Shown: piece by piece, positions 35,919-64,000 of the stretch
How the letters are laid out: every line of letters starts with the position of its first letter
How positions within the stretch are numbered: the stretch's first letter is position 1
Source: Euryodendron excelsum
Lineage: Eukaryota; Streptophyta; Magnoliopsida; Ericales; Pentaphylacaceae
Assembly: GCA_033060915.1 (NCBI GenBank)
Contig: CM065394.1
Span: 16,953,501 to 17,017,500, forward strand
DNA length: 64,000 bases
Direction: 5' to 3'
Made by a program: the position numbers and the translations under genes
The notes under the pieces: model-generated
Told to the model about the DNA's origin: nothing
Databases searched by the model: none
What the model saw: the letters and a program-made list of their open reading frames with translations, nothing else

Positions 35919-35934
35919 ATTGGTATCCAAGCAG
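35919..35934 (+). other. PBS of the gag-only copia element
   Basis: ATTGGTATCCAAGCAG directly follows the LTR. It is a slightly changed form of the Met-tRNA PBS (TGGTATCAGAGC). Confidence 0.8.
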
Positions 35935-35975
35935 GTTACTCTAAATTTCTTTGAGTGATCCTGACTTCCGTTTAC

Positions 35976-37118: not shown

Positions 37119-38998
37119 AATCTGCTCACTTTGAATTGCAGATGCTCAAAAGATATGTGATAACCGAATGGGAATTGGCTATGAGAAGGGTAAAAAGCAA
37201 TGTAGTCAAACCGGTTTAGACGGTTCAAGCTAAGGCTTCCGCACTCAAGCCACAAGGTAACTTACAACCTGAAGGTCAAGCACGAAATAGGTATGCTACT
37301 CACCAGAATTGTAATCTTGTACATGTTAAACTGAGACAAAATTGGCTATTAGGTATACAAGAGTTCGTACCGATTTATCACCATTGTGGGATTCGAGGTC
37401 ATATTCGGCCTCAATGCCATAAGCTCTATGGTCTACCAATTGACTACGTAAGGACTAGAGTTAATGGGTTTCACCAACCTAGGTATGAGTATAATTTCTC
37501 AAGTAATAGTTTTAATGTACTCTCCCAGCCCATGTGGGTTCAACTACCAAGGCAATTCAAACAGAGATTGGTGTTGAACCAAAACGCTACGGTACTACCT
37601 AGGAGAGCACCAAATCAGACCAAACCACAAATAAAGAAAATATGGAGAAGAAGGTCTAACTATAAGTGTCAAAGTATTCACACGGAACTCAAAGCCCAAT
37701 AGCTAAACATGTGATTCTATGCTTCCTAGAGTTTTTTTTTGTAGTGTGTTTTTTTTTTTTGTTATGAATCTTCTTTTATATACAAAACTCCAAAAAGATT
37801 TTCGGTTTGGTTTAAAAGATAAAATTATTTTGCTTTGATGATACACTTGAGTAGGTGTTATGTGGTTAAACATGACTTATATTGATTACACAAGAAAATT
37901 GTACACTGGGTCATATATGATTCTTGTGTATACCAGTTTAAGTGATACTTTTGATATGTTTGAGTACAAATTTTTGCACATATCAGCCGAATTTAACTGG
38001 TTGTTTGTCCGCATGAGTGATCAAATAATTCTATGTGCCTTTCTTATGGTTAATGTAAATCATTTTCTAATTTGAACATATGCAGTATGACTAAATATGT
38101 GTTGGTCCCCTCTATTAAAGGAAAAAATAAAAAAATTATGAGAAGCTTGTGCATGATGGAAAGGGCTGCCTATGAATATGTGTGAAAGTCGCGATCTGAC
38201 AGGTTTTAATGGTGCAAGTTGTGTCAAGTTGATAGAAAGGACTACTATGTTCAAATAGCGTGAAAACTGCCACGTAATTGCTAGAAAAGTAGTAAGCTTC
38301 AAAAGTAGTCATATACTGAGGGGGAGCATAGCTCAAAGTCAACCTAATTAGAGGTTGCAACATATGTGCTCTCTATATTATGCATTACTTTATCTTACAA
38401 ACGTGGTGCAGCTATATAGATCACTAATTGGATTTGAATGATAGGTTGATTAAGGTTTGATATTCATAACAACACCACTACACATTCAGGAAATTTGTCA
38501 TCTTTTGACCAACTACTATGGTTCATATTACCTGTGTGTATATTGCGTCTATGATCAAGATGAGCTAGGTCTATGTCACACATAACCATCTCTTGATATC
38601 GGACAAGTGTTGATTTCATACTTGGTTATTTTGTGTTTATTATTAGTTTGTCAATTCGTGACAAAAAAGGGGAGATGAGATTAGATATGTTGACTTATGT
38701 TACTTGTGTTAACTTAAGGGGTTGATTTGAGGGGCAGAAAGTGATATTGCTTGTGGATATAATTACTATGTTATTTATATATTTTTCATCACATGGTTTG
38801 ATAGTTTATGAATGTCTATATATATATTTTCACCACTTGCTTTTCACATGGTTTGATTGTTTATGGATGTGCAGCTACAGCTTCAACAATTTTGCATTCT
38901 TCCCGTTATTTTTCGTTAATTTAAGTTCTTGGAATGGGAGTTGTAATGAGGTTGTTTTGGTGTTTAAGTTTTGTTACGGAATTGCCAAAGAGGGAGAT
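37119..38998 (+). other. Post-gag region with second knuckle remnant and purine tracts
   Basis: Near 37367-37432 the translation HHCGIRGHIRPQCHKLYG matches a second copia zinc knuckle, with its first Cys changed to Tyr. After that no pol domain is seen. Purine tracts GAGGGGGAGCA (about 38318) and AAAAAAGGGGAGATGAG (about 38663) resemble extra PPTs, as seen in long 3' regions of SIRE-type elements. The true PPT is at 38987-38998. Confidence 0.6.
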
Positions 38999-39982
38999 TG
39001 TTAGTATTTTTAGTATTGGCTAATTCCGTTGACAAAGACACTTTGCTTGTTACCTTGGTTCAAGTTGTATTTGGGTCAAAAAGTCTAAGATTCAAGTTCA
39101 AGCTGTCAGAGTATAAGTTGTCCAAGTTGCAGTACAAGCATTTAAAGCACGCAGAGCTGAAACTTTGGAACGTCATATCTCTTTGCTCAGGTGTCCATTC
39201 ATGGTCCATGATATATGGATTCCATATAACTTTTCAAGAGCAATTTGAATATACAAAGACCTTGGCTCAAGCGAAGTCCACTCGAGCGGTATGTGAAAAT
39301 TTTGCAGATGCAAAAATCTAAAGAGCACCGCTCAAAGACTATTAGATATCCGCTTGAGTAGTACGGCAAAATTTTGTTCGAATTAAAATACTCTCTCATC
39401 AAAGTATGTTAATTTTTGAGGACTCTTTAGCCAGTTTTTTTCGACCAATCAAGAGATAGTTCCAGACTATTTTCCTGATGATTTTGGGAAGCATATGAGA
39501 GCAGCAAGAGAGAGACTTAGGGTAAGACTTTTGATATTTTCTCTTAGGCCTGATATTTAGAATTGATCAAGAGAGCGAAAAGGGTGAAAAGTTAAGGTTT
39601 TGAGATCACAAGAATGAGTAGTTGATTTTGCAACTTGAAGAATGACTAGGAGACGGTCTTTAGAAGATTCTAAAGATGAAGAACATTGAAGGGATTCAAT
39701 CTTAAAGTTGAAGCACAGGAGTAGAAACTCGAGGAGTCGAGCACACAGTCTCAAGTCGAGGTTCGTGCGAATTTGAACAATAATTGCAAAGTTCAATTAC
39801 TAGGGCTGTAAGTTGTGTGTGTGTAAACTGTTCAATTTAGTACTTGACTTGCTGGACGTGGTTTTTTTCCGGTTTGGGTTTCCATGATAAATTCCTGTGT
39901 CTTTTACTTTATCGCTCTGCATTGCATACATTCATCACATAGGTAAAGACTTAGGTTAAAATTCAAGTAATACGGAATTTCA
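38999..39982 (+). mobile_element. 3' LTR of the gag-only copia element
   Basis: 984 bp and collinear with the 5' LTR. It lacks one of the repeated CGAGCGGTA phrases present there (about 35190-35220), and its TATA-like TATAAG reads TATGAG. Confidence 0.88.
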
Positions 39983-40744
39983 AACTACTTATCACATTGT
40001 GAGAAACCACATCATACTTCTACAATGCCAAGTGCCTTTGAATTAACTTCCATTGACCTCCTCCTGATGCTCTTTTGAAGTGCCATTAATCATATCTTGA
40101 TCCTCCCTTGAGATGCCACTTGTATTTCTAGAAAATCTTTGAAATAGGTTTATTATTTAAATATTTTTTGTATAGGTAAGTTTATATAAATTCATGTTCA
40201 TTCCCTTTCAAATGAACCATTTTTTGTAGATAAAGAGTTATATTCATTCACTTTCTGAGGAATTTGCTTCAATGTGTTGATTCAGGCCATCTATTCAAGA
40301 TTTGCATCCATTCACTTTCAAAAGGGTCAATATGTCTATTCGAGTGGCCTTTCATTATGTCCATTGAATAAAAAATCGATCATATCTTTAACATATCAAT
40401 TGAAATGATTTTTTTTTTATTTTATTTTATGGAATTGAAATGATTTTGAGACCTCAGTATCTGTTTTATACATATAATTGATGATATTTTATAGTTTCTC
40501 ACTATTTTTTGGGATGTAATCAAGCTGATATTAAAGTCTCTCTAAAATATTTATTCATATTTTTTGGGTTTTGATTAAGCCTGTGATTTGTAGGTTAAAC
40601 ATATTATCCAATTTAAATATATATTTAAATATACTTAAGAGATATAAAAGTATTTAGTATCTGTCCAACACAAATTCTAATAAAAATTTATAATCAAAAT
40701 ACAATAAAAATAATTACTATAAAATAAATTACACAAAATTCGCT
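39983..40744. other. AT-rich spacer, no gene seen
   Basis: No domain, terminal repeat or tandem array recognised. Confidence 0.55.
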
Positions 40745-41150
40745 ACTGTCCGGTGATCGCTCCAAAGATATGAAATGTATTACCTCAAGCAAATGGTGGG
40801 TGAAGTAGTTTAAATCTAATAAGTTGGAGTCGAATTCTACAAGGATCAAGCTAAATATAAACTATAGCACTAATAGAACACTAGGCTTCCTAGAATAAAT
40901 TTACAAACAACAAAATGCATCTTAATGAAAGTAAAATCGAAAATGTGTTTGATAAAGAGATTTAGTTTGTTAAACTATTTCAAAACAATTGAAACTAAGT
41001 TTAAACGTAAAGAGAATAGTCTTAGATCCAATTGATCCAATCACCCAAGTTCATCAAGCGTTCAATCGAGAAGTTTACAACTCAAACTAAAGATCTTATC
41101 TATCCCTTGGCTTTCGCTTCAAGCCCTCTCGGCTCAAGAAAAATCTGATA
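40745..41150. mobile_element. Possible gypsy (Athila-like) LTR fragment
   Basis: The text GGAGTCGAATTCTACAAGGATCAAGC and the CCTTGGCTTTCGCTTCAAGCC stretch near 41106-41126 resemble phrases common in Athila-type LTRs, from memory. It abuts the giant LTR at about 41150, and strand and ends are unclear. Confidence 0.35.
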
Positions 41151-43724
41151 CTCTCTATGTTAGAACTCATCCTCCTAAAAAGACAAGTGCGACTGGAATT
41201 TAATTTTAAAATTGATTTTGAATAAAGGCTTTTTGACAAAATTTGAAGTTGTCACCTAACATAATTAAAGATGTGCTAGGTCACCTAAAACTAAGTGCAA
41301 TGTGGAGACTAAACTTAAGTTTTTTGAAAATCTTTTGGAAGTGCCTTATAAGAAAGGTTTTAGAATTTCAAGGTTTTAAGCAACCATTGTAAAACTTTTT
41401 AAAGCACTTTTGAAAATGTGACTCTGAATTGGCCTTTGAAACAGAAATTTATGGTCCGAGGGTTGGTTACGTGTCTGGAAGATATCCTAAGATCATTATC
41501 TTACTCCACCCTTTCACTAACTACATGTCTATTCACCTTTAATTTACTTACTAAATCACCGGTTACTCAATATCCATTTGATATCCACTTTGAAGTTTTG
41601 GAAATGTGGTTTGGTCACCACTTTTGGAATGTATGATGCATGATCTATGAAAGACTTTTGAAAGAGTTGAGAATGTTTGAAACTTCTTTTTGAAAGAAGG
41701 AATATTTTGAAAAAGGACATTTAACTTTGAAATAAGGGTTTATGATCGCACCTATGAAGGTTGTCTACGTAGTTCGTGCAAAACTACGAGTTTGAAAGAT
41801 TTGGCAAGTGTTTGGGCTCTATCCACACATTTTTGACTGGGATTGACTCTAGTACCATTCTGTCACGACCCAAGATCTACATGGTACAATATTGTCCGCT
41901 TTGGACCTTGACTTGCACGGCTTTAAAATGTGTTATACCAAGGAGATACAAGTGGCTACATATATATCACTTTTTCTCTCCTTTTCCAAGTGATGTGAGA
42001 TAGCAACACATAATCTTGGAGCCAGCCTGCCACTACTGTAGCTTGCTAGGAACTCGTCCCCACCTACGTGTAGCCGCTTGAGTCTCATAGTATGATTGAA
42101 ATATTTTTAAAAAGTGTCAATTTGAAGGACATGGTGACTGCACCTAGGTTTCTCTAAGTTGCCTACATATCTCATTAGGTGAGAATCAGGTCAGTCGTAA
42201 TTCATGCAAAAGCATGGTTTGAAATGGACTCAAACGAGTCTTGTAAGGTTTTTGAGACTTGAACTTAAAAGAGTTTTGAATTGGAATTGGATTTGAGAAA
42301 GTTTTGGAGTATTTTTTAAATAGAACTTGAGAGTTTTTTTTGGAATGTTTCTAAAAACCAATTTAAGAGAGTTTTGAAATCAACTTAAGAAAGTTTTGAA
42401 ATTTTGATTTGAAAATTTTGGAAATAGAATTTGGATTTGAAGAAGGGTAAAAGCTCTCGTGATTTTGTCTTTGAAAAGTTTTTAAAAATCTTCATAAAAT
42501 GTATGTTGAATATTTCATCAGCTTTAAGAGATTAGCTATTAAGGTTATGATTTTCAAAAGTATTTTTAGAAAAGGGCTAGAAACTTCCTTTAGGATTTTG
42601 AAAACTTTTAGGGTAATGGAACTCTAGTTTGATATTTCACTTTTCTTAAGTAACCTCAACCATGGAAGACTAAGGTTACCTTAAGAATGTGATTCTTAAA
42701 AATCATTTTTGAAAAAGATTTTTTGAAAACATTTAATGTATAAAACCTTAATATGAACCTTGAAGGTTGAAGGTTTCATTTAATGTATCACTTTTCCTTA
42801 AAAACCCTAACCATGAGAGGGTTAGGATTACCTTAGGGTTTGAGTTTTTGGAACATTTTGGAAAGTAATTTTTTTTTTTAAAATGCTAGGTGTCTAGCTA
42901 TTTTTGATAAGAAAAGTCCAAGACACCCTTTGAAAACATTTGAGAGGTTTATAAAAGCATTTGAAAAACACTTTATAACCATTTGATTTTTTGAAAAAAA
43001 TATAAAAAGTGGGATATTTTAGAAACAAGGTTTGAAAGATGATTCGAAATTGAATAATGGTTTGAACAGGATTTGGAATTAGAACACTTAGGCAAGGCTT
43101 GACCTAGGTTAACTAACTAGAGTTAAGTTAACTTAGGATTGAATTGACCTAGGGTTAACTAACAAAACCTAGTGGTTTTGGAAGGTGATTATGAACTAGA
43201 GTTTTGGACCTAGTGGTTTTGGAAGTTTTGGAAATGCCATTTTATGCATGAAGCTTTGAAAGGTATTTTGAAAATCATGATTTCATCTAAAAACCTTATA
43301 TTTTATGTGGAAAACTTCTAAAAAAGGCTTTTTTTTTTTAAATAGTAAAAGAAGAATTTTTATTAAATAAAAACAGAGTTACATCAAAGGATAGATTTAA
43401 GCCTCAAGCGATAACAAGACCTTGCTGCAAAAACCACGCCAAGATCAACACATCATAAGAGACAATGCTGGTGAGATACCAGTAGTACAATCAACAAGAG
43501 AATACACACTCCCTCTACATTATAGCTTCAAAATGCCAAGAAAGACACATCCTATGCCTCCTAGATACAATAGCCACCTAGATTACCCTGTGATCCTTCT
43601 CACCCCTTTTAGAGAGTATATAACATCATTTACTATGAAAAAAAGACTTGGCTACCTACTTTCAACCATAGTACTGCCTGAATATTTGCATTCTCTACTA
43701 CATCCATCCATTTGAGATCAACAT

Positions 43725-44980
43725 TGTTAATGATGGCCCGAAATAATAACCCGAGCGAGGGGGGGGGGGGATGAATTGGGTTTTTCAAAAATTAAGGCAA
43801 TAAAACCAATATGTAAAATATAAGAATGAATGGAATGGTAAATCAAGGTAGGATATGAATGCAAGCCAGTCAATGTAATACAACAAGCACGATAATATAG
43901 TGCAGAAAATAAAACAGAGTAAGGAAGACATAGAGATTTTACAGAGATTTAGTGTTTCTTTGCTTACGTCCTCTTCCTTAATTTCTTCAAGGGGATCCTC
44001 CACTATGTAAAAGTCCACTTTACACAGTTTGCTGTTTCTCTAAGTGCCAGCTCACTTTTTACAAGAGTTTACACTAAACTCTCAAACCCTAAGTGATTTT
44101 ATCCAAGATTTACTCAAATTTACAAGTGTTTTTGCCCAAGAGTACTCAAACTTGTAGGTTACAACCCAACCCAATAATAAAGGAGTTTAATACAATGAGT
44201 ACTCTCACAAAGAGTAAATGTGCAAGTTGCAGCTCAATCAATAACCTCACAACAAAGGAATGAGAAGAATATATCAGTGAAGTGTAGAATATCTCTTTAA
44301 ATATGATGTATGGCCTTTATGATCTTGTATATTCTTATATAAATGCTTTATAGACCTTGTAAATATGGTCTTGTATCATATCTAGTCGTTAGAGAGTGGA
44401 TGAAGTGCATTCAATTCGAATTGAGCTCTGCAGAACGTTCAAAAAAATTACTGTTACTGCCCAAATTTCTTTCAGGCGTCGACTCTTATATTAGGTGTCG
44501 ACACTTGCTGCTTCAGTTCTCTTCTCCTTGCCGTTCATGCGTTGACTCTCATATTGGGTGTCGACGCTTGCTGTTTCAATGCTCTTACCCGACTTCTCTG
44601 GAACCACAGGTGTTAGCACCTCTGAAACTGGGTGTTAACACTTGTTATTTCAGTTCTCTTACCCGACTTCTCTGGAACCACATGTGTCGACTCTCGTATA
44701 AGGGTGACTTGCTGCTTCAATACTCTTCTTCAAGGTTAGAAGTCTAGAAGGGTTTAGTTCCTTTAAAGGGTGTCAACACATGCCCTGCTTCTTTAACCTT
44801 CATTATGACTTAAACAATTGGTTTCAAAATCGTTAATAGTTTCTTCAATTTATCCAATAAGTCCTTCAAGATATCAAGTCTTCAAAACTCATTCTTTAAA
44901 TAAATTTGGACAAGTAGAACACCTTTAATCTCTTCGAGATGAAGTTGATTCAATAAATTCTTTGTAAGGCTTCTCTAACA
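43725..44980 (-). mobile_element. Copia-type LTR inside the LINE
   Basis: The plus-strand left end TGTTAATGATGGCCCGAAAT and the following GAATTGGGTTTTTCAAAAATTAAGGCAAT resemble the LTR start at 10629. CACCTTTAATCTCTTCGA near 44920 matches 11859-11877 closely. A minus-strand TATATAAG is near 44335. At 44475-44786 there are eight or more GTCGAC/GTTAAC-centred palindromic phrases, such as AGGTGTCGACACTT and AGGTGTTAGCACCT. The right boundary is approximate and no TSD was established. Confidence 0.65.
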
Positions 44981-44989
44981 ATCTTCAAG

Positions 44990-45140
44990 TTTTTCAATCC
45001 ATTATGGTATGCATCCAAATTTTCCAAGCAAACTTACAAGTAAGAAGCAAGTGATTAGTATCTTCATCACCATTCTAGCACATGGTACACAAGATAGTAC
45101 TACCTTGGGGAAGGCAATTTCTATTGGCAAGCATTACCTT
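44990..45140 (-). pseudogene. LINE zf-RVT domain remnant
   Basis: On the minus strand the translation gives LCTMC, a stop, then EDTNHLLLTCKFAWKIW. This is the C-X2-C ... H-X4-C zinc-binding pattern at the C-terminus of plant LINE RT proteins. The copia-type LTR lies just beyond it. Confidence 0.75.
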
Positions 45141-45893
45141 TGACTTAATCCTCTCTTAAAATGCAATCCAACAATATGAAATAGTTTTAAAGGGGATTTC
45201 ACTTGCTAAACCTTTGAGAGTACCAGAACATCTTATCTGCTCAAGCTCCTTGCTTGCATGCAAAAATATTTAATTGTGAAAATACCATCCTTCTCCAACT
45301 TTGATATTATTGAACCCAACCTTCAGCAGTCAAGGGTGTAAGGCTCAATCATATTTTTTGAACTTGCATAGGTCCTCTTCTTCCCACGCAAATAAATTTA
45401 TTCTGTGTAAAGTACCATAAACCCATATCATCCTTCATATCTGCAATGCATACAGATTTCTACTTTGCCAAATTAAATAGTCTAGGGAAAGCATCTTTCA
45501 AGGACTTTTCTCCAAGCCATGCCTCTTTCCAGAACTGAATATGATTACCATTCCCCACCCTTATTTTGAAATGTTTTAAGAGAATTTCTTTGAATATTCC
45601 CTGTTCAAATCCAATCTTTAATATGTCCAATCAAATGCCTGATCCAATCTTATTCTAAACTTCACTAAGTAACTAGGCCCCTACATTATAATTGTATTTA
45701 AGATATACTACTTTCCTCCACAAGGCACCTTTCTCCCTTGCAAACCTTTACCACCACTTAGCTAATAATGCCTTATTCATCACTGTAACAGGGATCACCC
45801 TAAGATCACCCTTGCTTTTACATCTAGTTATTTTGTTCCAGCACGTACAATGGACTTTCTTTTTGCCTTCTTGATCTCCCCCTAATAATTTCT

Positions 45894-46345
45894 TTAGATC
45901 TTCTCAATTCTTTTACAAATCTCTTTTTGAGCACTAAACATGGATAGATAATATAAAGGAAGATTTGACAAAGTTGATTTTAATAAAGGGAGTCTTCCAC
46001 CTATGGATAAATAATTTTTCTTCCAAGATGCCAATCTCCCTTTTAGTTTGTCCAACACACCCTCCCATGTTTTAACATACCTTGGATTAACACCTACTGT
46101 CACTCCCAGAAAATTCATGGGTAATTTCTGAACTTTACACCTGAAAACCTGGGATATCTCCATAAGGAAAACATCATCCACCCCTATACCACAAATTGCA
46201 CTTTTTTAAAAATTTATTCTTAACTCTGACATCAGTTCAAAACATCTAAGGATCCTTTTTACATTCCTTAATTCACTCTTGTCAGCTTCACAGAAAAATA
46301 TTGTGTCATCAACAAATTAAAGGTGTGATATAACGGGTCCACTCC
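45894..46345 (-). pseudogene. LINE reverse transcriptase, C-terminal part
   Basis: The translation contains ISHL, a stop, FVDDTIFFCEADKSEL (the F-x-DD catalytic box of non-LTR RTs), then LPMNFLGVTVGVNPR and KLKGRLASWKKNYLSIGGRL. KSTLSNLPLYYLSMF follows. These are the typical plant L1-type motifs after the catalytic box. The stop next to the box, the missing palm and fingers, and the split 3' part make it inactive. Confidence 0.88.
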
Positions 46346-48161
46346 TTTTTTCCTATCAAAGAAGGCTTTGAAAATTGTCATTTCATGTAAGAAAGTTATA
46401 ATTTCATGTAAAACTTTTTTCAAAAAATCAAATTAAGAGAGTTGTAGGTTTTGAAAAACCATTTTATTAAAAATCACTCAAGTGAACCTAGGGTTCATAT
46501 GGTTGATTTTGAAAACCATTTAAGAGAAGGTTTCATTGGGACTATTCTAAGTACTAATTCAAGAGAGCAAAACTTTAAAAACCTCCTTAGAGAGGGTTGT
46601 TTAGAAAACCATTTTCATGCAAAAAGTCAAGAGAGTAAACTTTTGAAAAGGTTTTTTAGAGAGTGGTTTTGAAAATCTCTTTTGGAGAGGGTTGTTTTGA
46701 AAACCATTTTATGCAAACCTAAGAGAGTAAACGTTTGAGTCCCACTCTGGAGAACATTGCTTTGAAAATCACTTTGACAAGATTCTTATGGTTAATTTTT
46801 GAAAACCACGCTAGAGAGATTTGCCTTGGAACTATTTTAATCATAAACTCAAGAGAGAAAAACTTTGAAAACCTCTTTTAGAGAGGATTGTTTTGAAAGC
46901 CATTTTATTTAAAATTCAATCGAGCAAAATGAAATGATGCGACTTAGATGGTTTGGTGGTTTTGAAGACATTCTAAGGTATGGAAACCTATGGTTTAGGG
47001 CTTGAACACTAAGAAACTCTAATTTGGAGAGCTATTTTGGAAAACATTTTGACATAAACTTTGAAAAACATTTGGAGACAGTATCAATGGAGGTTTGAAA
47101 AGAGTTTTTAGACACAAAAATAAAGCCATTATATTCAAGATACGAACATCACCACAAGTATAATGCAAAGGTTATGAATCATACAGGGTTAGGTTTCACC
47201 AAATTACAAGGTGCTCCAAGGCCATACTATATTAAATTAGGCTCATAAGAGATCCTTGGACACTGTGATTCTCACAAGTTTTCATCTAAGCATGACCATG
47301 AAGCTCTCTTGTTTCAAGCACACAAGAAGATGGGGTAGAATATGGGGGCTAAAATAGAAACATAGCTCAAATGAGCTAGAAGGGAGAAGAGAGAATGGGG
47401 GTATACATAAACTTAAAGTAGAGTTTACCTTGGTTTTCAATCCACTATAGCTTGAACCTTGGATTTTCAATTGGTGGATTGGTCTTTAAGGATTCTTGAG
47501 TTTTGGAGATTTAGAAAGATTTTCGAGATCTCTGTTTTGATTTCTGCAGAGTTTCCTTACATTTTTTGTCTTTGAAATACCAGGGGGGGGGGTGTTGGGG
47601 GGGTTAACATTTATAGGCAACCTGGATTGGTCTAGGCACATGAAGTATGTGCGGCTGGCCAAAATTAAGGCCATGTGTCTGTACTCAACCCCTGGTTAAT
47701 TATCATGTGTCATTCTTGTACCACCCTATCTTGGGCTGCAAGGCAAGTTTTGTCTTGATCTAATCACAATCTGGATGCATGTAGCATACACTTTGCTACC
47801 GAGAAATTTTATGCTGACTTTATCTCGATATTTGTGTCATTCGAGAATGATTTGGGAAAATTGGGCATGTTCATAACGTTCTCCTATAGTTTCTCTTGAA
47901 CTTGGGATGATTCCGGATGATAGAGATATCGCCTCAAAAAGCGAGCTTAAAAACAAGCTTCCGAGAGCTTCTATGAGACACTCCGTTAGTTTCCCAAGGT
48001 GGTAATTTTCGCACCACACAATCGTTGTTTTCAGGTAGCGATCATCTCGATTGAACCGTACCGATGAAAAGTTCTTCGAAAAGAATTCTTAGAATTTTCT
48101 AATTTATGCATTTATCAAGTCGTTTGACGATGCGTTTTAACCAGAAAATTGGGATGTGACA

Positions 48162-48232
48162 CATGAGATGGGAGGAGAAAACATGATTGTGGGCTTTATT
48201 TGATTCTTTCTCCAGTGCATGTTAGAGGAAAA

Positions 48233-52995: not shown

Positions 52996-53689
52996 AATTT
53001 CAAATGTTGAACAATATAAGCAAATGTAGTAGAAAGTAAAGCCAAGCACCAGATCCATAGGAGTAAATGATGCAACCGTTGGATAAAAGTAAAGACATCA
53101 GAAAGCATTTAATGCTCTCTTTGTTGCAGTTGTAAAAAACACACGTAAGAGGAAGAGATATGCTGTAAATTAATCCAAACTGTTGAATTTAAAACCAAAC
53201 TCAATACCAACTGTTGGAGTGTTTTATTGATTTCTATGAAAAGCAATGACATTTTTAGGTGGGATTTTGAAGCCGAAAAGATTAGCTCTAAAGTAACCTG
53301 GGCCATTGAATTAAACCAAAACTCAATGTCATTCGTTAGATTTACTTGTGTCTTGAGGACATTTTGAAAAAACCTAGCTAAAATGTGAGGTAGATATTAT
53401 ATTATATTATTATACATAATATAAAATAATATATTTAAGTTAAAGTAAAGGGTATTTTGATCATTACATGCCTTGCTCACAAACATCTTGTCCTAGGACT
53501 ATTTATATCAGCTCCCCCCTAGGACTAAATAGTCCCACAAATGTGGGATAAGTAATTTGATTGGGACTATTAGTACAACCATTATTTTTGCAACCAAACA
53601 TGGGACTATATGGGACTATTAGTCTAGTATGGCCTAGTCTGACTTAATCTTGTGAATTGCTTCCAAAGATGTTCAAACATTGAGCCCCC
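52681..53689. other. Spacer with G/GA run and GGGACTA-rich MITE-like patch
   Basis: A G run plus GA repeat is at about 52938-52992. A small duplication of AGCCCTTCAGAACCAT occurs near 52729-52766. At 53505-53640, TAGGACTAAATAGTCCC, TGGGACTATATGGGACTATT and similar dyads suggest a small palindromic MITE. No gene seen. Confidence 0.5.
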
Positions 53690-54295
53690 GTAAGAGAACG
53701 GATGTCGCGATTGAAATATAAATTCGGTAAGTGATTACACTTCAAAAGTATAATCTCAATCCCCTAATTAGTGGATTGTTAGCTCTAGTTTAGGTATTAG
53801 ATTAGTATTTTATCTTTAAATTGTCCCAAACATGCCTTTTTGATCTAATTGTAGGGAGTGGAGCTTAATTGTAGAAGAAAAAAGCCAAAAAGTGCATTAC
53901 TGAGCGATCGCCTAACTGATCAAGCGCTAACTTTAGATAGTTGATTTCACTAAGTGAATCAAGAGCGTTAACTGAGCGATCGGCTGAGCGATCGGTTGCG
54001 AGTGCTCGGTCGGGAGCGCTCGGTCTCTTGGGCTAGCATTAGCTGAGTGCTCCGTTAGTGCTCGCTTGACGAACCTTTATTTTTGTCCTACGTGTAAATG
54101 ACTGTTTTAGGCGTTTTTAGATCAATCTCTCATTTTTGTACTTAGATAGCTTAGATTTTTTTTTTTTGTATTTAAGAGTAGTGTAGAGATAGAAACTTTA
54201 TTTTCTTGGTACTCACCGGATTTCATACTTTAATCGTGACACTTGTTCTCTTGTGAGGGCTCAATTTCCGAATATTTTTAGAAGGTATTCAAGTT
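53690..54295 (+). mobile_element. Athila-like LTR, 3' part of a 5' LTR
   Basis: The segment ends directly before the PBS at 54297. It contains repeated GAGCGATCG, GAGCGCTC and GAGTGCTC phrases at 53903-54067, upstream of a TATTTAAG-type box near 54170. The left end was not defined. After the PBS no gag is recognisable. Confidence 0.6.
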
Positions 54296-54296
54296 T

Positions 54297-54315
54297 TGGC
54301 ACCGATGCCAGTGGG
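54297..54315 (+). other. Athila-type primer-binding site (decayed)
   Basis: TGGCACCGATGCCAGTGGG closely resembles the TGGCGCCGTTGCCGGGG motif that follows Athila/Calypso 5' LTRs, with CG-to-CA type changes. Confidence 0.7.
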
Positions 54316-54524
54316 TTGGAAAGCACTTGGTGAATTAGATCTCCATCATATCTATTACAAAAGAGTAATCTTCAGTTAAGGCCATTGGTAACTTTGTTCC
54401 ACTCTTTTATGTGCATAGTATGTTAGATTTTGATTTTTTTCTTTTGCACTTTATTTTAGGATTGTTTATTTGATTATGTAGTAGAATTTTCAATTGCTTA
54501 GTGATCAATCGGTGTTAGCAATTG

Positions 54525-54586
54525 GTGGATAGGCTTTTGTACTTAATTGTTTATTGGTGGTATTATTATTGCAAAAGCCTATCCAC
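54525..54586. repeat. 15-bp perfect inverted repeat at an element junction
   Basis: Arms GTGGATAGGCTTTTG and CAAAAGCCTATCCAC surround a 32-nt loop. It sits where Athila-like sequence gives way to giant-LTR sequence. Confidence 0.85.
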
Positions 54587-54589
54587 AGA

Positions 54590-57500
54590 CAGTCCGGCAT
54601 ACTTAATATGCCATTTGAACCAATTCTGGACCAATTCTGTTGACCCCTTGTAAAAATGACCATTTTACCTCTAGGCGCTTGATCACCCTCGTTGATCACA
54701 CTGGCTCTAGGTATTAAACCAAAAAAACCCCTGCGGAACTCCTATGAGTGTCCCCAATCTCCAAATGCCGTTCTAGCCAACTCCGAGTCGATCCTGGTGA
54801 ACCCTAGTTAAAATGACCGTTTTACCTCTGGTGGGTCGGTCATCCCTTCAACCATGCCAGCCCTGGGTATCAAACCGGTAAGCACATGGGACACTTCTAA
54901 TAGTGTTCTCAAGCTTTAAATACCATTCTAGTCAGCTTTGGACCAATTTAGGTGTTTTCTGGTTCAAATGACCGTTTTGCCCATGGTAGGTCGGTTATCC
55001 TTTTCAATTATACCGGTTCTAGGTATCAAACTGGCAACTCCCGAGACACTCCCGAGTGTCTCTATCTCTTTTCTAGCTAGGCATCGCAGCCCAATAGCTT
55101 TTCAAATCAAACCGGAGCCACTTGTAGTGGAGCAAGGCCAAAAAATGGCTAGGAGCCACTAAGAGTGGCGCAGAAAATCTTTGCCTTATAGCCTAAGGTC
55201 GAACCAAATCCACAGAGATCACTTCTATACTAAGGTGTGGCCCCAGGCTAAAAATTGGCAAGTCAATATTTGGCTAGGAGTGGCGCCATCTTCTTTAATT
55301 TTTGCCTATAATTATAGTGTACCCCCAAAGTATTCTAGGTTTGAAAAATTGCAAATAAACTCTGCCTCTCTCAAGACAGCCCCCAAAAACCTCCCAAAAC
55401 CCTAGTTCCTTCAAGGTCTTTAGCCTTCTTAGCTTGTACACTCTAAATCCTAGCCTCCAAGCACCATTGAAGGCCAACTTCAGCCCTTTCAAAGCTCTTG
55501 AAGGCCTCCCAAGTTCAAGTCAAGCCTCCAATGAAGCTCCAAAAAAGTTTTGGAGACAAGGTAGGGTACCTACTTATATATTATAATCCCCCACTCGTTC
55601 TCTTCTCCCTCCTAGTCTATTTGGACTATTCTCTATCTTAATCTACATCTTTTACCTCATCTTCTTGCATGCTTGAAACAAGAAGACCTTAGGTCCATGC
55701 CTAGGGAAAGCCTTGGGGAGGTCACCAGTTGGGGACCTTCCTATAGTTTACCTTATGATGGTGTGGTCTTGAGCCTTCTTGGTTTGGTGGTGAGACCCTA
55801 AGCCCTGTATGTTCACGACCCTTTGCATTATTACAATTGTCATGTTCATGCATTTGTTACAATTGCTTCACTTTCAAACTCACAATCTTAGGGTAATTCT
55901 AACCTTTTTATGGTAAGGGTTTCCCTAAGAAAGTGACATATTCAAAGTGGCTACCAAGGTCCATATTAGGGTTTGAAGCCTTAACTTACTTTCAAAATCA
56001 TAACCCTAAAGTGATTATAACCTTTTCCTGGTTACGGTTGCTTTAAAAAAGTGGAATATTCAAAGAGGCCTCTAAGGGTCATATTGGGTATCAAGCCCTA
56101 AAACACCTCTTTCAAAACCAAGTTGTTTTTAAAAAACTCTCGAAATTTCCCATTCAAAGTGTTGCTCTAAAGGTTGTCATTTTGAAGCCAATGATCAAAA
56201 CTCTAGAAGTTCATGCCCTAAGAAACCTAGTTTTGTCCCATAACCTTCATTCATCATACTTCAAATTGCATCAAAATGGTTTTCAAAGTCCTTATTGCAT
56301 TATGCTTTTCAAAAAAAGTGCATAACTCTCTTGAGTTGTCTTTCAAAAAGTGTCACATAAAGTCATAAAATCTGTCACATTAAATCGTAAGATTTTCAAA
56401 TCCAATCTTACCATTTTCAATTTCAAATCAAATCAAATCAAATCTTTCCATTTTGAAAACTAAATCAAATCCTTCCATTTTGGAAAAAAAAAAAAAAATC
56501 AAATCTTTCCTTTTGGAAGCAAAATCAAATCTCTCCTTTTTGGAAACAAAATCAGATCTTTCATTTTTCACATAAAATCATAGATTTTCAAAGTTCTCAT
56601 TTCAAGTGCATGCACCTAGCTTCCTCCCCAAATCATCTCCAAACCCTAGGTTGCCTAAAGCCTAAGTTATCCAACCTTAGGTCAATCCAAGCTTAGGTTA
56701 ACCCATCCCTAGCTGGTTAGCCAAACCCTAGTTAGTCAACCCTAGGTCAACCGAGCCCTAGCTGGTCTACCCTAGGTTAACCTAATCCCAGGTCAACCTA
56801 ACCCTAGGTTACCTTAACCCTATTTTGCCCAACCAAGGTTAGGTGGCTTCAAGGCTCCAACTCTAAACCTTTTTTCAAAATATTCCTCTACTTCACTCAA
56901 AAATGTTTTCAAAATCTCTCTCAAACTTGTCTCAATCTAAAAATGGGTAGACACTTACCATTTTTCAAAAACTACTTTAAAAAATAATTTCAAAAAACTC
57001 ACAACCCTAAGGTGATCCTCACCCTTTCATGGTTAGGGTTTTCTAGGGAAAGTGATATATCAAATGAAACCTATAAGATTCATGGTAGGGTTTCTAACCC
57101 TAAATGTTTTGCAAAATCTCCTTCTAGCAACTGTTTTCAAACATCACATTCTTGAAACAACCCTAGGCCTTCTATTGGCTAGGGTTGTCCAAGTAAAATG
57201 AGATATGCAAACAAGAGTTTTATAACCCTAAAGTCCAAAACCCTATGGGAAGTGTCTAGCCTTTTTTCTAAAAATGTTTTTAAAAAATCATAGCCTTGAA
57301 GGAGTTTAGTTCCCATATAGCTAACCTCTCAAAGGCAATGAAACATCAATATACCTTTCTTAAGGTGTCCAAAAACTATTTCAAGATAAGTTCACAAGAG
57401 CTTTTGCAAGTCCAAATTCCACCTCCAAAAACTCTTAAGTTCTATTTCAGAAACACTCTAACATCCAATTTCAAATCAAAACTCTCTTGAGTTCTTCCCA

Positions 57501-58303
57501 AATTTCAAGTCAAAAAAGCTATTAAGTTCTCTTTTTAAAACAAGACCCCAATGAGTCTTCAAAATTTTCCAAAGTCTCTAATGTGCCTACTTTCATTCGG
57601 ACCCTGAGTTCGAACTACGATTGACCTGATTCTCACCAAATGAGATATATAAGCAACCTTCATAGGTGCGGTCACAGCTTTTATTTATAAATAAAATCCA
57701 TTTTTCAAACTTCTATTTCTAATCTCTTTTCTAAAAACTCCCAAACTCTTTTCAAAACTTGCATCATGTGTCATTTATCCCAAAAGTGATGACAAACCGT
57801 TCTTCAAAACTTTTTCAAGTGGATATAAGTGGACATTTAGGAATCGGAGATTCAAGTGAGTGAATATAGGTTGAATAAACATGTAGGTATCGCAAGGGCG
57901 GGGTGGGGTAATGATCTTAGGATATCTTTTCTACACGTAATTAACCCCGGACCATAGGTCTCTATTTCAAAGACCCAAACTAGAGTCATATTTCAAAAGG
58001 GCTTAAAACATTTTCAAAGGTTTCCAAACAACCATATTTTTCAAAACACTTCGTAAAAGGACATTTTCAAATTGTTTTAAAAAACCTAAATTTGATCTTC
58101 AAATTATACTTAGTTTTAGGTGACCTAGTATGCCCTTAACTATGTTTGGTGGTAACTCCAAACCTTTTTTTAAAAAAGCACTTAATCAAATCAATTTCAA
58201 GTTCAAATCCCGTCACACTCATCCTCTTAGGAGGGTGAGTTCTAACAGAGAGAGTATTGTCCGAGTCAAGACTTAGACTCGGAGCAAAAACTGGGGTGCG
58301 ATA
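54590..58303 (+). mobile_element. 5' giant LTR (left-truncated) of the short-interior element
   Basis: It carries diverged repeat units with dyads (54889-54910 and 55043-55062). SGAGCCACT dyads lie at 55113-55165, followed by TATAATTATA near 55307, a telo-box near 55395, the GCATGCTTGAAACAAG block near 55665 and a CCTAGG/GTCAACC-rich stretch 56640-56830. The TACGTAG-type block is near 57612-57675 and the AAGGGCGGGGTGGGGT block near 57890. It ends GGGGTGCGATA (usual GCGACA with a C-to-T change). Compared with the solo LTR at 1125, its first part is missing. Confidence 0.75.
54650..55070. repeat. Diverged repeat units with hairpins in the 5' giant LTR
   Basis: Three units share AAATGACCRTTTTRCC, GGTATYAAACC and a dyad. 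The dyad arms are GGGACACT/AGTGTTCTC near 54888-54910 and GAGACACT/AGTGTCTC around CCCG at 55043-55062. They align with the 157-bp units at 1960-2660, but the hairpin arms differ in sequence. Confidence 0.75.
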
Positions 58304-58305
58304 GC

Positions 58306-59112
58306 ATGGCAGCACCTCCTTGTTGGTCTGTTAGAGAGTATATTCGAGCTAATGAGATTAGAGCTTAAGAACTATTTTGCTGGTCTCTTAGAGATTGTAT
58401 TCGCACTAATGGCCAAATGGAGTCTTTTACACTAACTCCTAATTTGGGGTGGCGTAACCAATTTAACCTTGTTAGAGGACTTGAGAGCACTTTTTCACAT
58501 CATTATCTAGCCTTACCTCAACCCTAGCAAGAGCCCTTTGACCATTATCATGAATCACCACAACTCTATTCTTACCATGAGCATAAGCATATTGTATACC
58601 CATCTCCAACTAATGAGTCTCTTGGAGATGATCCCTAATTAGCATCTCTAGAACAGACAAAAAGCATGTTAGCCAATGTAAATGGTCAAATGACCTTATT
58701 ATTCGAAGCTTTGAATGTCCAAGAGACAACCACCTACCAAGAGAGCTTTAGTAAAACCAATCCTAATCCTAACCCTAACTAAGAGCAAGTCCATCCCATC
58801 CCTAGCCTTAGGAAAAAGGACATTATAGAGCAAACCATCTTTCCCCAACATTTGAAGTCTAAGGAAGAAAATCCTAAGGTAAGTGACGAAGTTATTGAAG
58901 ATAATGATAGGGATGATGAACTCGAGAGGGCAGAGATCATGATCAGGGCTTCCAAGCAAAAAGAGAGTGAGAGGGAAGATAGTGAGAGAAATAAGGAGCT
59001 GATGAAGGTTGTGAGCGAGAATCCTCTAGAGAAAACCATTACCTTTAGTGAGGATGTTCTTCTTTTCGATGTTAGGGATTCACATAAGAAGGAGGATATT
59101 AATGGTATATAG
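58306..59112 (+). pseudogene. Sole internal reading frame of the giant-LTR element, function unknown
   Basis: An ATG three bases after the 5' LTR begins MAAPPCWSVREYIRANEIRA. One frame runs without any frameshift to 59112, broken by four internal stops. After a fifth stop it stays open through the PPT into the 3' LTR (to 59370). All five stops are one C-to-T step from CAA or CAG. The open C-terminal part (58852-59112) is highly charged and coiled-coil-like (DDELERAEIMIRASKQKESE). The N-terminal half has WRNQFNLVRGLESTF. No zinc knuckle, protease, RT or integrase motif is seen and no family is recognised. It may be a relic of an Ogre-type ORF1, or of an unrelated gag replacement. Confidence 0.6.
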
Positions 59113-59247
59113 GGCATTCATAACAATTCTATGGGCCTTGAGACCCATATTTTTACACTTCTAGCACCTAGTCCTCATATCCTGAAGCCTTTAGAGATTC
59201 ATGTCCTACTATTAGAACTGAATATACTTCATCTTGTCAAACAACTA

Positions 59248-59265
59248 GAGGAAGGGGAAGATAAA
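59248..59265 (+). other. Polypurine tract directly before the 3' giant LTR
   Basis: GAGGAAGGGGAAGATAAA abuts TGTAAGCACCCC at 59266. This is where plus-strand priming would occur and identifies 59266 as an LTR start. Confidence 0.85.
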
Positions 59266-59452
59266 TGTAAGCACCCCATTTTTGCCTATTCAGCAACCTC
59301 CGGCCCAACCGGATCCAGCTTTCAAACACCACAGCACATACGGGCCCAAGATGGCTCTTTCAAACTCTAATCCAATCAGCTGGTCACTTCTCCGGTTCAC
59401 AAGGCCTAATTGAAATTGAAAAAACCATATTACCCCTAGGTATTCCAGGTAG

Positions 59453-59830
59453 CTTTCCGAGATCGGGCGGTCTCGGGAACTAACGCCATCCAGCCAGCTT
59501 TCTGAGACCGGGTGGTCTTGGGAACCAATGCCATCCAGGTAGCTTCCTGAAATCAGGTGATCTCGGGGACTAACACCTTATCAAATTCCAGACGGTTCAC
59601 TTCTGGTGCTTGCTAGCCCGCCAATGTAGAATGTCGGCCATTTGGTAGTTCTTTGAGACCAGGTATTCTCGGGGACCAACACCACCCTCACAGGTAGCTT
59701 TCTAAGACCAGGTGTTCTCAGAAACCAACACCACCCTGCAGGTAGCTCTCTGAGACCGGGCGGTCTCAGAGACCAACATCGCACAAGTAGCTTTTTGTGA
59801 TCGGGTGGTCTCGGGAACCAAGACCTAGGT
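59453..59830. repeat. Array of GAGACC-type hairpins, about 7 units
   Basis: The best unit (59751-59768) has arms TGAGACC and GGTCTCA around GGGC. Other units near 59456, 59500, 59550, 59655, 59700 and 59790 vary in arms and spacing (about 50 bp, one longer gap). Linkers read GGTAGCTTYCTGA and CCAACACCA. Confidence 0.85.
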
Positions 59831-60284
59831 CAACATCGGTGCTTGCTAGCCCGACTCGATTAAAAATGACCCAACCTGCCCCTTGGGCCTCTAGACACAT
59901 CTTGAGAAAGTTCAAAATGCCTCAAGATGGTAAGCCTACCTTTCTAAAGTGTTTCTAAACAGTCGTGCGTACTCGACACGCCAGCCCATCCAATTTCGGT
60001 CCCATTTCGGGCAATTTTGGCCAAAATGACTATTTTGCCCAAAGACGCCCCATCACATCACAAATCCCATCAGATAGTGAAAAACTTTTCAAGGACCATC
60101 CTCGAACAACCCTACATGCTTAACATGCCATCCCAACCCATTTTGACCTTTTTCAACCAATCTCAATCGAAATGACCATTTAACCCCTAGCAACCCAAAC
60201 GCGCCTCAAAACTACACTATCCTTGGGTATTAAATAGCGGGTCTTACCATGCATTATAGTTTAACCCAAGGTAAACCTCACGAC

Positions 60285-60740
60285 TCTAAACACTTTCGAC
60301 TCAGCAAAAGTCCCCTAGAGTGACTTGCAAACGCTCCGCTAGAGTTGTCTTTTCTCTCGATTCCCTGGTTATAATGCACCGTCAAACGACTTGAGAAATG
60401 CCTAACCAGGGAATTCTCGAAAGCTCGTCCACAGGTCTTTTTATCGGTATGGCTTGATCGGATGGATTGCTTCCTAAAGCCCCTCATCGCATGGCTTGAA
60501 AACTACCATTTTCAGTAGCCCCTAGAGCGTCTCATTGAAGGCTCCGCTAAGGTTGAGTTTTTCTCCAATTCCCTTATTATAACGCACTGTCAAACAACTT
60601 GAGAAATGCGTAAATTAGAGAATTTTTGAAAGTATTTCTAGAGCACTTTCCATCGGTATGGTCCGATCAGAGAGATTGCTTCCTGAAGGTCCCGATCACA
60701 TAGCCCACAAACGGCTACTTTTGGACACATGCGAAGCGTA
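60285..60740. repeat. 208-bp tandem repeat, about 2.2 copies
   Basis: GTCAAACGACTTGAGAAATGC starts at 60381 and its copy at 60589. The units include GCTCCGCTA, ATCGGTATGG and GATTGCTTCCT phrases. The minus-strand LTR has one matching unit at about 47940-48145. Confidence 0.88.
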
Positions 60741-61049
60741 TCACAGACGCTCCGCAAAAATGTGTTTTTGGGCAAGCATTCCGAGATGATATTTCACTTT
60801 TTCGAACACCTTTCAGGCTTCCTGAAAATTCAAAGTTCATGAGAAACACTAGGAGAATACCGTGAACATAATTGATTTTGTTGAATCCTTCTCGGTTTGC
60901 ACAATTATCGAGGCAAAGTTTAAACAAACATTCTTGGCGGTGGAGCGTACGCTATATGCGCCTAGATTTTGGTCAGATTGCTCAAACTTCTCTTAGCCCT
61001 TAAGATTTGCCTAGTACAATGAGTGCCATGTGGCATTTTGTCAATGGAA

Positions 61050-61142
61050 TAGTATTGGCGCATGTAGCACATGTGCTAGGGCAAAATTTTCCCAGACGCA
61101 TGTACTACATGCGCCAGTCATCTCCAACTTTGCCTATAAATA
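61050..61142 (+). promoter_or_regulatory. LTR core promoter: GCGCATGTA dyads and TATA box
   Basis: Near-palindromes TGGCGCATGTA...ACATGTGC (about 61057-61077) and GACGCATGTACTACATGCGCC (about 61096-61115) precede TATAAATA at 61135-61142. This is the same layout as at 3018-3140 with a different inner arm sequence. Confidence 0.65.
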
Positions 61143-62584
61143 CATGCCCCCCCCCTTTGCATATGTCAGAATCAAAATTGATAGTGAATCTCTGCTAAAA
61201 CTTCTCTAGAATCTTGAATTGCTATATACAACCCACATTTCAAGCACTTAGGCTAGATTCCATCTCCTCCTAATCAATACACTACACCTATATAGCCAAC
61301 AATGCCATAGAAGACCTCATTCCAGCCCTTTCAAGCCTCTTCAAGTCTATTCAAGCTCAAGTCAAGGCATCCATGGAGATTTGAAAGTGTTTGAGGGCAA
61401 AAGGTAGTATTCTCTTTACATTTTTGCAATCCTCACTCCTCTCTTCTCCCTCCTAGCCTACTTAGGCTATTCTCTATTTTAATCGCCATCTTCTATCCCC
61501 CTTTCTTGCATGCTTGAAACAAGAAAACTCTTAGTTCATGCCTAAAGGAAAGTTTGTGAGAGCTACCATGTAGGGAACTTCTCACAAACCTACTTTAAAA
61601 TGGCATGGCCTTAGAGCTCCTTACTATGTGGTGAAGCCTCTAGCCTTGTATGATTTCATGACCTCTTTGCATATAGTTATCTTGTTCATGTTTTGCATGC
61701 TTGGCTTTATTTTCATGTTCACAATCTCTTTCCAAAGCCCTCACTATCTCTTTTCTATATCATTCACAAAGCTCCATATTCAAATGATTCCCTAAAAATG
61801 ATTCTACAATTGATTCCTTGAAACTTAGATCAAACCCTCAATTTCTACATCTTAGAAAATCCTCTTTAAGTGCCTTGACTTTGTTTTGCAACCCTACATC
61901 TCATTACTTTTCAAAATTGCACTAAAATGGCTCTCAAACCCTCTTATTCTTCATTGATTTTTAAGGGTTTCACTCTCTTAAACTTTGTGATTGAAATGGT
62001 CCCTTGGAACCCTCTCTTGAGTGGTCTCCTCATTATCTTGACCATATGAACCCTAGTTGGCTCTATTCTCTTCAAAAATGGCTTTCAAAACGTTTCTCTT
62101 CAAAAAAGGGTTCTCAAGTGGCACTTTCTTTAATTTGCATAAAAATGACTTCCCTAAAACATTACTTTCACCTTGATTTTTAGAAGTTTTGCTCTCTTGA
62201 ATATTGTGCTTGGAATGGTCCCATGGAGTCCTCTTTGGAATGATTTTCTTCAAATTAACTATATGAACCCTTATTCTTTGGAGTGATCTTCAACCTCTTA
62301 AAAGCGATTTTTCAAAACCTCCTTTCCAAAACCAATTTATAAAGGATCACTCTCTTTAATTTTCAAGTCGCCAAAATTATCTATTCAATGTTAATTTTGA
62401 CAAGTTTTGCTCTCTTGAGTTTGTGGGTGAAATAGTTCTAAGGTAATCCTGTCTTGAGTGGTTTCTAAATATCAACCATAGGACCCCAACAGTCACTTCA
62501 GTGGATTTCATGAAAATGGTTTTCAAAACATACTTTCAAATTTCATGCATAAAACTATATTTCCTAAACCATTAGGTCAAAAAC

Positions 62585-62950
62585 CTAGTTCAAAACCACC
62601 TTTTAAAACCACCCTTCAACCCTAGGTTAACCTAACCTTAGTTAGTTAACCCTAGGTCACCTTAACCTAAGGTTAACCTAACCCATGTTAGTTAACCCTA
62701 GGTCATCTCAACCTTAGTTAACCTTAGGTTAACCTTACCCAAGTTAGTTAACCCTAGATCACCTTAACCCTAGGTCAACCTAACCCAAGTTAGTTAACCC
62801 TAGGTCAATCCAACCCTAGTCCAACCTAACCCTAGTTCTCCAACCTTAGGTTAACTTAACCCAAGTTAGTCAACACTAGGTTAATCCAACCCTAGCCTAA
62901 CCTAACCCAAGTTAGTTAAACTTAGGTCAACCCAACCTAGGTTAGTAAGC
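62585..62950. repeat. Degenerate GTTAACCCTAGGTCAACCTAAC array
   Basis: GTTAGTTAACCCTAGGTC-type units recur at about 62641, 62683, 62742, 62789, 62864 and 62911, at spacings of about 42-75 bp. Shorter equivalents are at 56640-56830 and, in complement, 43085-43165. Confidence 0.8.
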
Positions 62951-64000
62951 TTCAAGGTTCCAATTCAAGGAACCTTTTTCAAATAATCTTTGAACTCAAA
63001 AACTATCTTCACAACTTACTTTCTAAAAGCATCCTACTCTCTTGAGATTTCAAAAATCAAACCCAAAATTGTTTCAAATATCCCCACACTCTATCTTTAA
63101 AAATGTCTCTAAGAAGTTCTCTTGAACTTGTCCCAATGGCTAGACACTCAACCTTTTTTAAAACCTATCTTCAAAATGTTTTCAAGAACTCACAATCTGG
63201 AAGTGTCCTTAACCCTTTATAGTTAAGGATTCTAAGGGAAGGTGATACATTAAATATAACATCCAAGATTGTCCATATTAGGGTTCTAAAACCCTAAGTG
63301 CTTTTCAAGAGTCCTTTTCAAAAATGATTTTCAAACATCATATTCTTGAAGCAACCCTAATCCTTCCATGGTTAGGATTGGTCAAGTGTAAGTGAGATAT
63401 TCAAGAAGGGTTCTATAACCCTTAAGTTTTAAAGAACCAAAGGGAAATCTCTAGCCCCTCTCTTTCAAACATGTCTTCAAAACTCATTACCCTAAAGGAG
63501 CTTAGTTCTTCAATGATTAACCTCTCAAAGGTAAATGAAACATCAAACATGCCTTTTAATAAGGTATTCAAAAACTACTTTCAAAAGCTTTCGAAGACAA
63601 GTTTATTAAAGCACTTTCAATCCTAACCCTACCTCCAAGGTTTTCAAAACAAGATTTCAAAACATTTTCAATACTCTCTTGAGTCATTACAATGCTTATT
63701 CAAAACTCTCTTGAGTCAATTTCAAAAACATTCAAAGTCGTCTTCAAATCCAATTTCAACAACACTCCAAACACCCCAAGTCCTATTTCAAAGGCATTTT
63801 TGTGGACTCTCAAATTCTCTCTTTTTTCAAAAACCTCAAAGTGTCCACAAACCTTTGCAAAGACCTCAATGTGTCTTCAAAACTTTCCAATGGCCTTAAT
63901 GTGCCTCTTTTCTATCGGGCCCTTGCCCAAACTACGAATGACCTAATTCTCGTCAAATGAGATACGTAGGCAACCTAAAATGGTGCGGTTATAACTCTTA

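Follow-up and report, generated by a model that had tools for sequence, protein, structure and literature searches.

Retrotransposons of the Ogre/Tat/Athila (OTA) group are described in one account as having long terminal repeats (LTRs) of up to about 5 kb, tandem arrays in their non-coding parts, and heterogeneous extra open reading frames (ORFs), mostly without known domains (PMC6317226; see also PMC11963269 on Retand). An extra ORF of this kind between pol and the 3' LTR goes by names such as eORF-3'F and aORF-3S, and ORFs in sense orientation have been described in this position (PMC7264820). Among non-autonomous elements, large retrotransposon derivatives (LARDs) are said to have no protein-coding capacity (PMC7215508), and TR-GAG is presented as a single-ORF non-autonomous LTR element (PMC10552921). 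Here, we analyse 64,000 nucleotides of Euryodendron excelsum DNA (contig CM065394.1, positions 16,953,501 to 17,017,500; hereafter the window), in which 962 bp with a decayed coding frame separate an LTR-like end at 58303 from the next LTR-like start at 59266. We propose that this locus is probably, with rather better than even confidence, a chimera in which parts of two related copies of large-LTR retrotransposons are joined.

The LTR family is represented by a solo LTR (A), an interrupted copy (B), the copy ending at 58303 (L1), and the copy starting at 59266 (L2). As in OTA elements, the LTR is long (5335 bp in A) and tandem arrays are present, here of 81 bp and 157 bp in the U3 of A, although neither feature is exclusive to that group. 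In contrast to OTA elements, gag-pol, reverse transcriptase (RT), and aRH were not found at the locus, with no pol between L1 and L2, so the lineage cannot be assigned; moreover, the ORF has no match to typical OTA Pfam families at E values up to 1. The locus resembles a LARD in being a large-LTR element without recognisable gag-pol but differs in having a coding frame that is conserved (21 proteins), even if broken in this copy. Under the length-based usage of a Medicago survey, an ORF would not bar the LARD name (PMC2533021). The same survey includes the comparably LTR-dominated Mtr77, in which the LTR measures 2191 bp, the whole element 4668 bp, and the internal domain only about 200 bp (PMC2533021), but the LTRs of Mtr77 and of the Medicago families of LARDs and terminal-repeat retrotransposons in miniature (TRIM) are smaller than those of the present family. 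Unlike TR-GAG, neither the frame nor its 21 relatives contain a gag domain.

LTR ends and the two junctions

The limits of the family are set by A, which lies in a Copia pol gene (Table 1). It begins TGTAAGC and ends GCGACA (the 3' end reads GGGCGCGACA), and when its flanks are joined to restore the empty site, a Copia frame on the minus strand reads through the joint without a stop. As a complete LTR with AGAAC on both sides and an open frame across the joined flanks, A is a solo LTR and fixes the family ends, the length of about 5.3 kb, and a target site duplication (TSD) of 5 bp. The TG...CA ends and short TSD of an LTR retrotransposon are accordingly seen on A, with L1 and L2 each lacking one end in the window. 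The sequence TGTAAGCACCCC has exact plus-strand matches at 1125 and 59266, and two more sites resemble it with two mismatches. L2 opens with TGTAAGCACCCCATTTTTG, the same as A, and its alignment with L1 projects its end to 64620 and its length to about 5.36 kb (5355 bp). L1 has a complete 3' terminus (GGGGTGCGATA) and is without roughly its first 850-1000 bp. Boxes resembling the TATA-like box of L2 were seen by eye in both A (at 3133) and L1 (at 55307).

Table 1. Features of the large-LTR family in the window
Feature	Position	Strand	Basis or remark
A, complete solo LTR, 5335 bp	1125..6459	+	TG...CA ends, length, empty site; sits in Copia pol gene
TSD AGAAC, left copy	1120..1124	+	flanks A
TSD AGAAC, right copy	6460..6464	+	flanks A
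B, third LTR copy, interrupted by inserts, L2-like U3	41104..48162	-	alignment; outer limits approximate, by eye
L1, 5'-truncated LTR of the same broad family, A-like U3	54590..58303	+	sequence alignment
Junction, expected place of the primer binding site	58304..58330	+	aligns with family-internal codons, APPCWSV versus TPPCRSI
Decayed frame, 320 codons, 5 stops, no frameshift	58306..59265	+	homology with P0001 (residues 57-315) and with the P0002/P0003 types
Polypurine tract, 15 purines followed by TAAA	59247..59265	+	adjoins 3' LTR; also codes for the frame end LEEGEDK
L2, 3' LTR of the element owning the interior	59266..64000, runs past window end	+	LTR start, preceding purine run
TATA-like box in U3 of L2	61135..61142	+	by eye

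The right side of the interior is a normal junction between a polypurine tract (PPT) and a 3' LTR. The run AGAGGAAGGGGAAGA (59247-59261) is the sole purine run of at least 12 in the interior, and the tract (59247-59265) lies directly before the LTR. Longer members of the protein family run 70-75 residues beyond the corresponding EEGEG; this C-terminal part has no tblastn match in L2 (E below 1 considered), and its sole matches elsewhere in the window are weak, one of P0019 at 13051 (E 0.13) and one of P0003 at 25406 (E 0.30).

The left side is of a different kind. Alignment of the frame begins at residue 57 of the family protein P0001 (58312-59259) and at residue 53 of P0021 (58303-58548), so the DNA right after the LTR end is ORF-internal, and any primer binding site (PBS) there would overlap ORF-internal codons. 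None was recognised by eye after 58303. A TGG at 58307 falls within the 0-5 bp from the LTR in which Neumann et al. sought the PBS (PMC6317226), but it lies inside the coding stretch, and the alignment of this site with ORF-internal codons speaks against a PBS. Relative to P0001, 56 residues of the family N-terminus are missing from the window frame, and tblastn of the 21 proteins against the window (matches with E below 1 considered) gave no convincing match to these codons elsewhere. The preliminary description of this DNA had reported a clear PPT at the end of the interior, which is borne out, and had not convincingly identified a PBS.

Three side observations concern the LTR copies. Just ahead of the L1 homology, at 54525-54586, is a perfect 15-base inverted repeat (GTGGATAGGCTTTTG / CAAAAGCCTATCCAC, by eye), which may mark where a different mobile element ends and cut L1 short. 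B is interrupted around 43340-46340 by an insert of about 3 kb that, by eye only, has the look of a decayed long interspersed nuclear element. In the U3 of L2, 59957-60094 gave weak tblastn matches to the mid-part of 8 of the 21 family proteins (E 0.022 to 0.79), which may be chance or a captured piece.

The decayed frame and its protein family

The frame starts with an ATG at 58306 and has internal stops at 58366, 58525, 58636, 58780, and 59110. By comparison, the two remaining forward frames contain 22 and 48 stops when followed to 59277, and the three reverse frames of 58303-59265 contain 19, 17, and 30; five or fewer stops in the best of six frames occurred in 1 of 3000 first-order Markov sequences. 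The single frame noted in the preliminary description is therefore far more open than chance but not intact, and its lack of a recognisable gag or pol agrees with a Pfam scan of the translation, which gave no match at E values up to 10.

The frame (with X at stops) was compared with 816 candidates, picked by shared words from 5.8 billion proteins. The best relative is P0001, an Actinidia rufa protein that aligns over 99% of the query at 38% identity (E 3.1e-45), with homology along the length of the frame, and it was the sole protein at E values up to 1 among these candidates. Searching with P0001 gave 15 proteins including itself and searching with alignment A2 gave 20, for a union of 21 (P0001-P0021), of which 13 are named as A. 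rufa proteins and the other 8 are ENA entries without a name. In the names of the A. rufa gene models there are eight different numbered tags and five '00' tags; we take these to stand for chromosomes and unplaced scaffolds, and on that reading the genes seem to be dispersed. Repeated units of LRDYIRAN type are common to the window frame, P0001, and P0002, and the stretch GQMTLLFEALNVQ of the frame corresponds to SQLTLLMQTLVVQ of P0003. An MFG start is present in five of the 21 proteins but not in the window frame, and several gene models begin further inside. One gene model, P0016 (Actinidia rufa), has two tandem copies of the ORF sequence. The first 60 or so residues of P0005, also from A. 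rufa, resemble what we take to be the start of an aldehyde dehydrogenase, which might place the ORF within or next to such a gene, although Pfam gave no support for this at E values up to 1.

None of the 21 proteins has a credible Pfam match: scans of 20 of them (E up to 1) gave seven unrelated families with one member each (best E 0.014), and the best E for P0016 was 0.23. Plant mobile domain, Transposase_28, and ATHILA ORF-1 do not match the ORF at E values up to 1. We also considered a gag reading, and rejected it when hmmscan gave no gag family for the frame or its 21 relatives; the motif PNLGWxNQ in the frame, which we had presumed to be like Athila gag, was likewise not borne out by hmmscan. 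A solved-structure search with P0001 gave one match (E 0.51), taken as chance, and Rfam gave one match in 53000-64000, under the gathering score (E 0.62). The AlphaFold model of P0003 (20 sequences) has a mean predicted local distance difference test score of 45.1, and only two helices, 100-150 and 330-361, reach fair confidence (block means about 68-82). Most likely, this ORF next to the 3' LTR encodes an additional protein that is largely disordered and has a coiled-coil-like helix.

Outside plants, relatives of P0003 were sought in viral contigs (6 pattern-matching stretches) and prokaryote genomes (19), with 0 confirmed, and plasmids gave no match. LTR words were absent from viral contigs, and one exact 18-mer in prokaryote genomes (a Limnohabitans contig) was taken as chance. 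A description of the family was not found among literature titles and abstract openings, a scope that mostly leaves out subscription journals.

Relationship of L1 to L2 and the origin of the locus

If L1 and L2 belonged to a single intact element spanning 54590-64000, they should be sisters. Identity between L1 and L2 is 65.6% in the R block, 69.6% in block b2, and 78.0% in block b3, compared with 61.6%, 73.9%, and 59.6% between L1 and B and 68.2%, 66.5%, and 56.6% between L2 and B. The nearest pair is thus L1-B in b2, L2-B in R, and L1-L2 only in the short b3. In 832 three-way columns (the tighter blocks where L1, L2, and B all align), 110 sites group L1 with L2, 105 group L1 with B, and 106 group L2 with B; gaps shared in the same columns number 4, 4, and 5, respectively. 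The three-copy tree is a star, and a sister signal between L1 and L2 is absent.

The U3 regions differ in type. Local alignment scores (with the largest of 100 shuffles in brackets) are 101 (32) for L1-A and 90 (27) for L2-B, against 32 (29) for L1-L2, 31 (29) for L2-A, 23 (28) for L1-B, and 23 (31) for A-B, so the U3 of L1 is mainly A-type and that of L2 B-type, with slight mutual likeness. The LTR end of L1 is 71.9% identical to B and 67.9% to A (the same region of L2 is beyond the window). L1 is therefore a mosaic, with an A-like U3 and an LTR end nearer B. Neither the star tree nor the different U3 types give the sister relationship that a single intact element requires.

The frame also bears on relative age. 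L1 and L2 differ by a Kimura two-parameter distance of 0.44 in the wider blocks, or about 0.22 per lineage, and across the 788 columns of R and b2 they are separated by 21 indels, of which 18 have a length that three does not divide. Were the decay of the interior to span the whole L1-L2 divergence, about 11.0 frameshifts would be expected, and 0 were seen. This absence is support, not proof.

How might such a locus arise? In our favoured explanation, a copy that we call D would keep its 3' end here, namely a partial ORF, the PPT, and a 3' LTR of about 5.3 kb (L2), and L1 would be the LTR of another member, its 3' terminus set against codons within the ORF of D. The simplest cause would be a nested insertion of the L1 member into that ORF in the same orientation, the 5' part of L1 and the upstream sequence of D having been lost later or lying beyond the window. 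L1 aligns with A to the last LTR base, as insertion would give. In its normal cycle, the family would presumably be transcribed from the U3 TATA box, with a tRNA-primed minus strand and a plus strand primed at the PPT, and would integrate with a 5-bp duplication.

Several points weigh against the chimera. A single element looks just like this, with the end of one LTR and the start of the next 962 bp apart, both from one broad family and oriented alike. L1-L2 is the closest pair across the 141 columns of b3, and their U3 score lies just over the shuffle maximum, indicating that some homology is left. As L1 is a mosaic, conversion could have blurred a true L1-L2 pair, and the 5' end of L1, where one copy of a target duplication would lie, is lost. 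The frameshift argument weakens if LTRs gain indels faster than coding DNA, as they may, and adding b3 (1 event in 141 columns) brings the expectation down to about 10. Stops do not tell the ages of interior and LTR apart, since the 5 seen compare with 6.3 expected for 0.19 changes per site.

One alternative is a single, very old non-autonomous element, with LTRs that have diverged by about 30% and a native interior of 962 bp holding a single frame. The LTR end, frame, PPT, and LTR start do follow in the correct order and orientation, b3 pairs L1 with L2, and LTR-dominated families with short interiors are known, as in the internal domain of about 200 bp of Medicago Mtr77 (PMC2533021). We nevertheless judge this improbable, for it has to accommodate 832 columns without sister signal, U3s of different types, a PBS falling within ORF codons, and a frame without frameshift. 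Alternatively, L1 could be the element's own 5' LTR, with the PBS, leader, and ORF start taken by a deletion. This would account for the missing 56 N-terminal residues (relative to P0001) and for the unrecognised PBS, but the lack of sister signal between L1 and L2 applies here too, and a deletion fits less well than an insertion because it would need to stop at the LTR's last base by chance; we regard it as quite improbable.

A different question is what the native family looks like. The ORF may be an extra sense ORF of a gag-pol element or the sole ORF of a non-autonomous group, and we lean modestly towards the first. Under the second, the family would be a LARD-like group with giant LTRs and a single ORF of about 375 amino acids, of which only the 5' part is disturbed here. 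This is compatible with the chimera, and we give it the confidence of the chimera multiplied by the share allotted to a sole ORF, which makes it doubtful with a real but minor chance. The 21 homologous proteins (13 of them A. rufa models with eight different numbered tags plus five '00') speak for it, as do the unmatched gag and pol families and the long ORFs reported in half of 11 Medicago TRIM/LARD families (PMC2533021); against it, a complete element was unseen and the protein records are silent on upstream sequence. More specifically, it would be unlikely, though conceivable, that Actinidia and its relatives harbour a non-autonomous family with two LTRs of about 5.3 kb and little beyond one gene of about 375 codons, its product mostly disordered, coiled-coil, unrelated to gag/pol, and kept by selection for recruiting partner machinery.

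On the chimeric reading, the preliminary description was right that multi-kilobase LTR sequences lie on both sides of 962 bp, yet its assembly of them into one element is probably wrong. Its figures of roughly 90% LTR and a 962-bp interior fit the locus only, given LTRs without sister signal and a 5' junction inside the ORF, and the tiny interior probably represents a scar, not a designed layout. Of the non-autonomous family it suggested, what stands is a conserved frame with relatives beside a PPT and 3' LTR, and the native 962-bp interior finds no support.

Surroundings and significance

The window has a GC content of 36% and contains Copia and MuDR-like as well as large-LTR sequence. At 34908-39983, direct repeats of about 1 kb (87% alike) surround about 3.1 kb with a Copia gag ORF (PF14223, 36171-37115), possibly a gag-only, TR-GAG-like element. 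A minus-strand ORF at 21597-22553 has a MuDR transposase DNA-binding domain (PF03108).

By analogy, published OTA, additional-ORF, and TRIM/LARD examples would make the locus ordinary. It illustrates that the end of one LTR and the start of another, when both come from one broad family, can imitate a short-interior element, and that an LTR sister test is needed before short-interior families are named. One clear PPT/LTR junction also ties a family of 'hypothetical proteins' without names from Actinidia rufa, a relative of kiwifruit, to a large-LTR retrotransposon, so that their mobility and role become testable.

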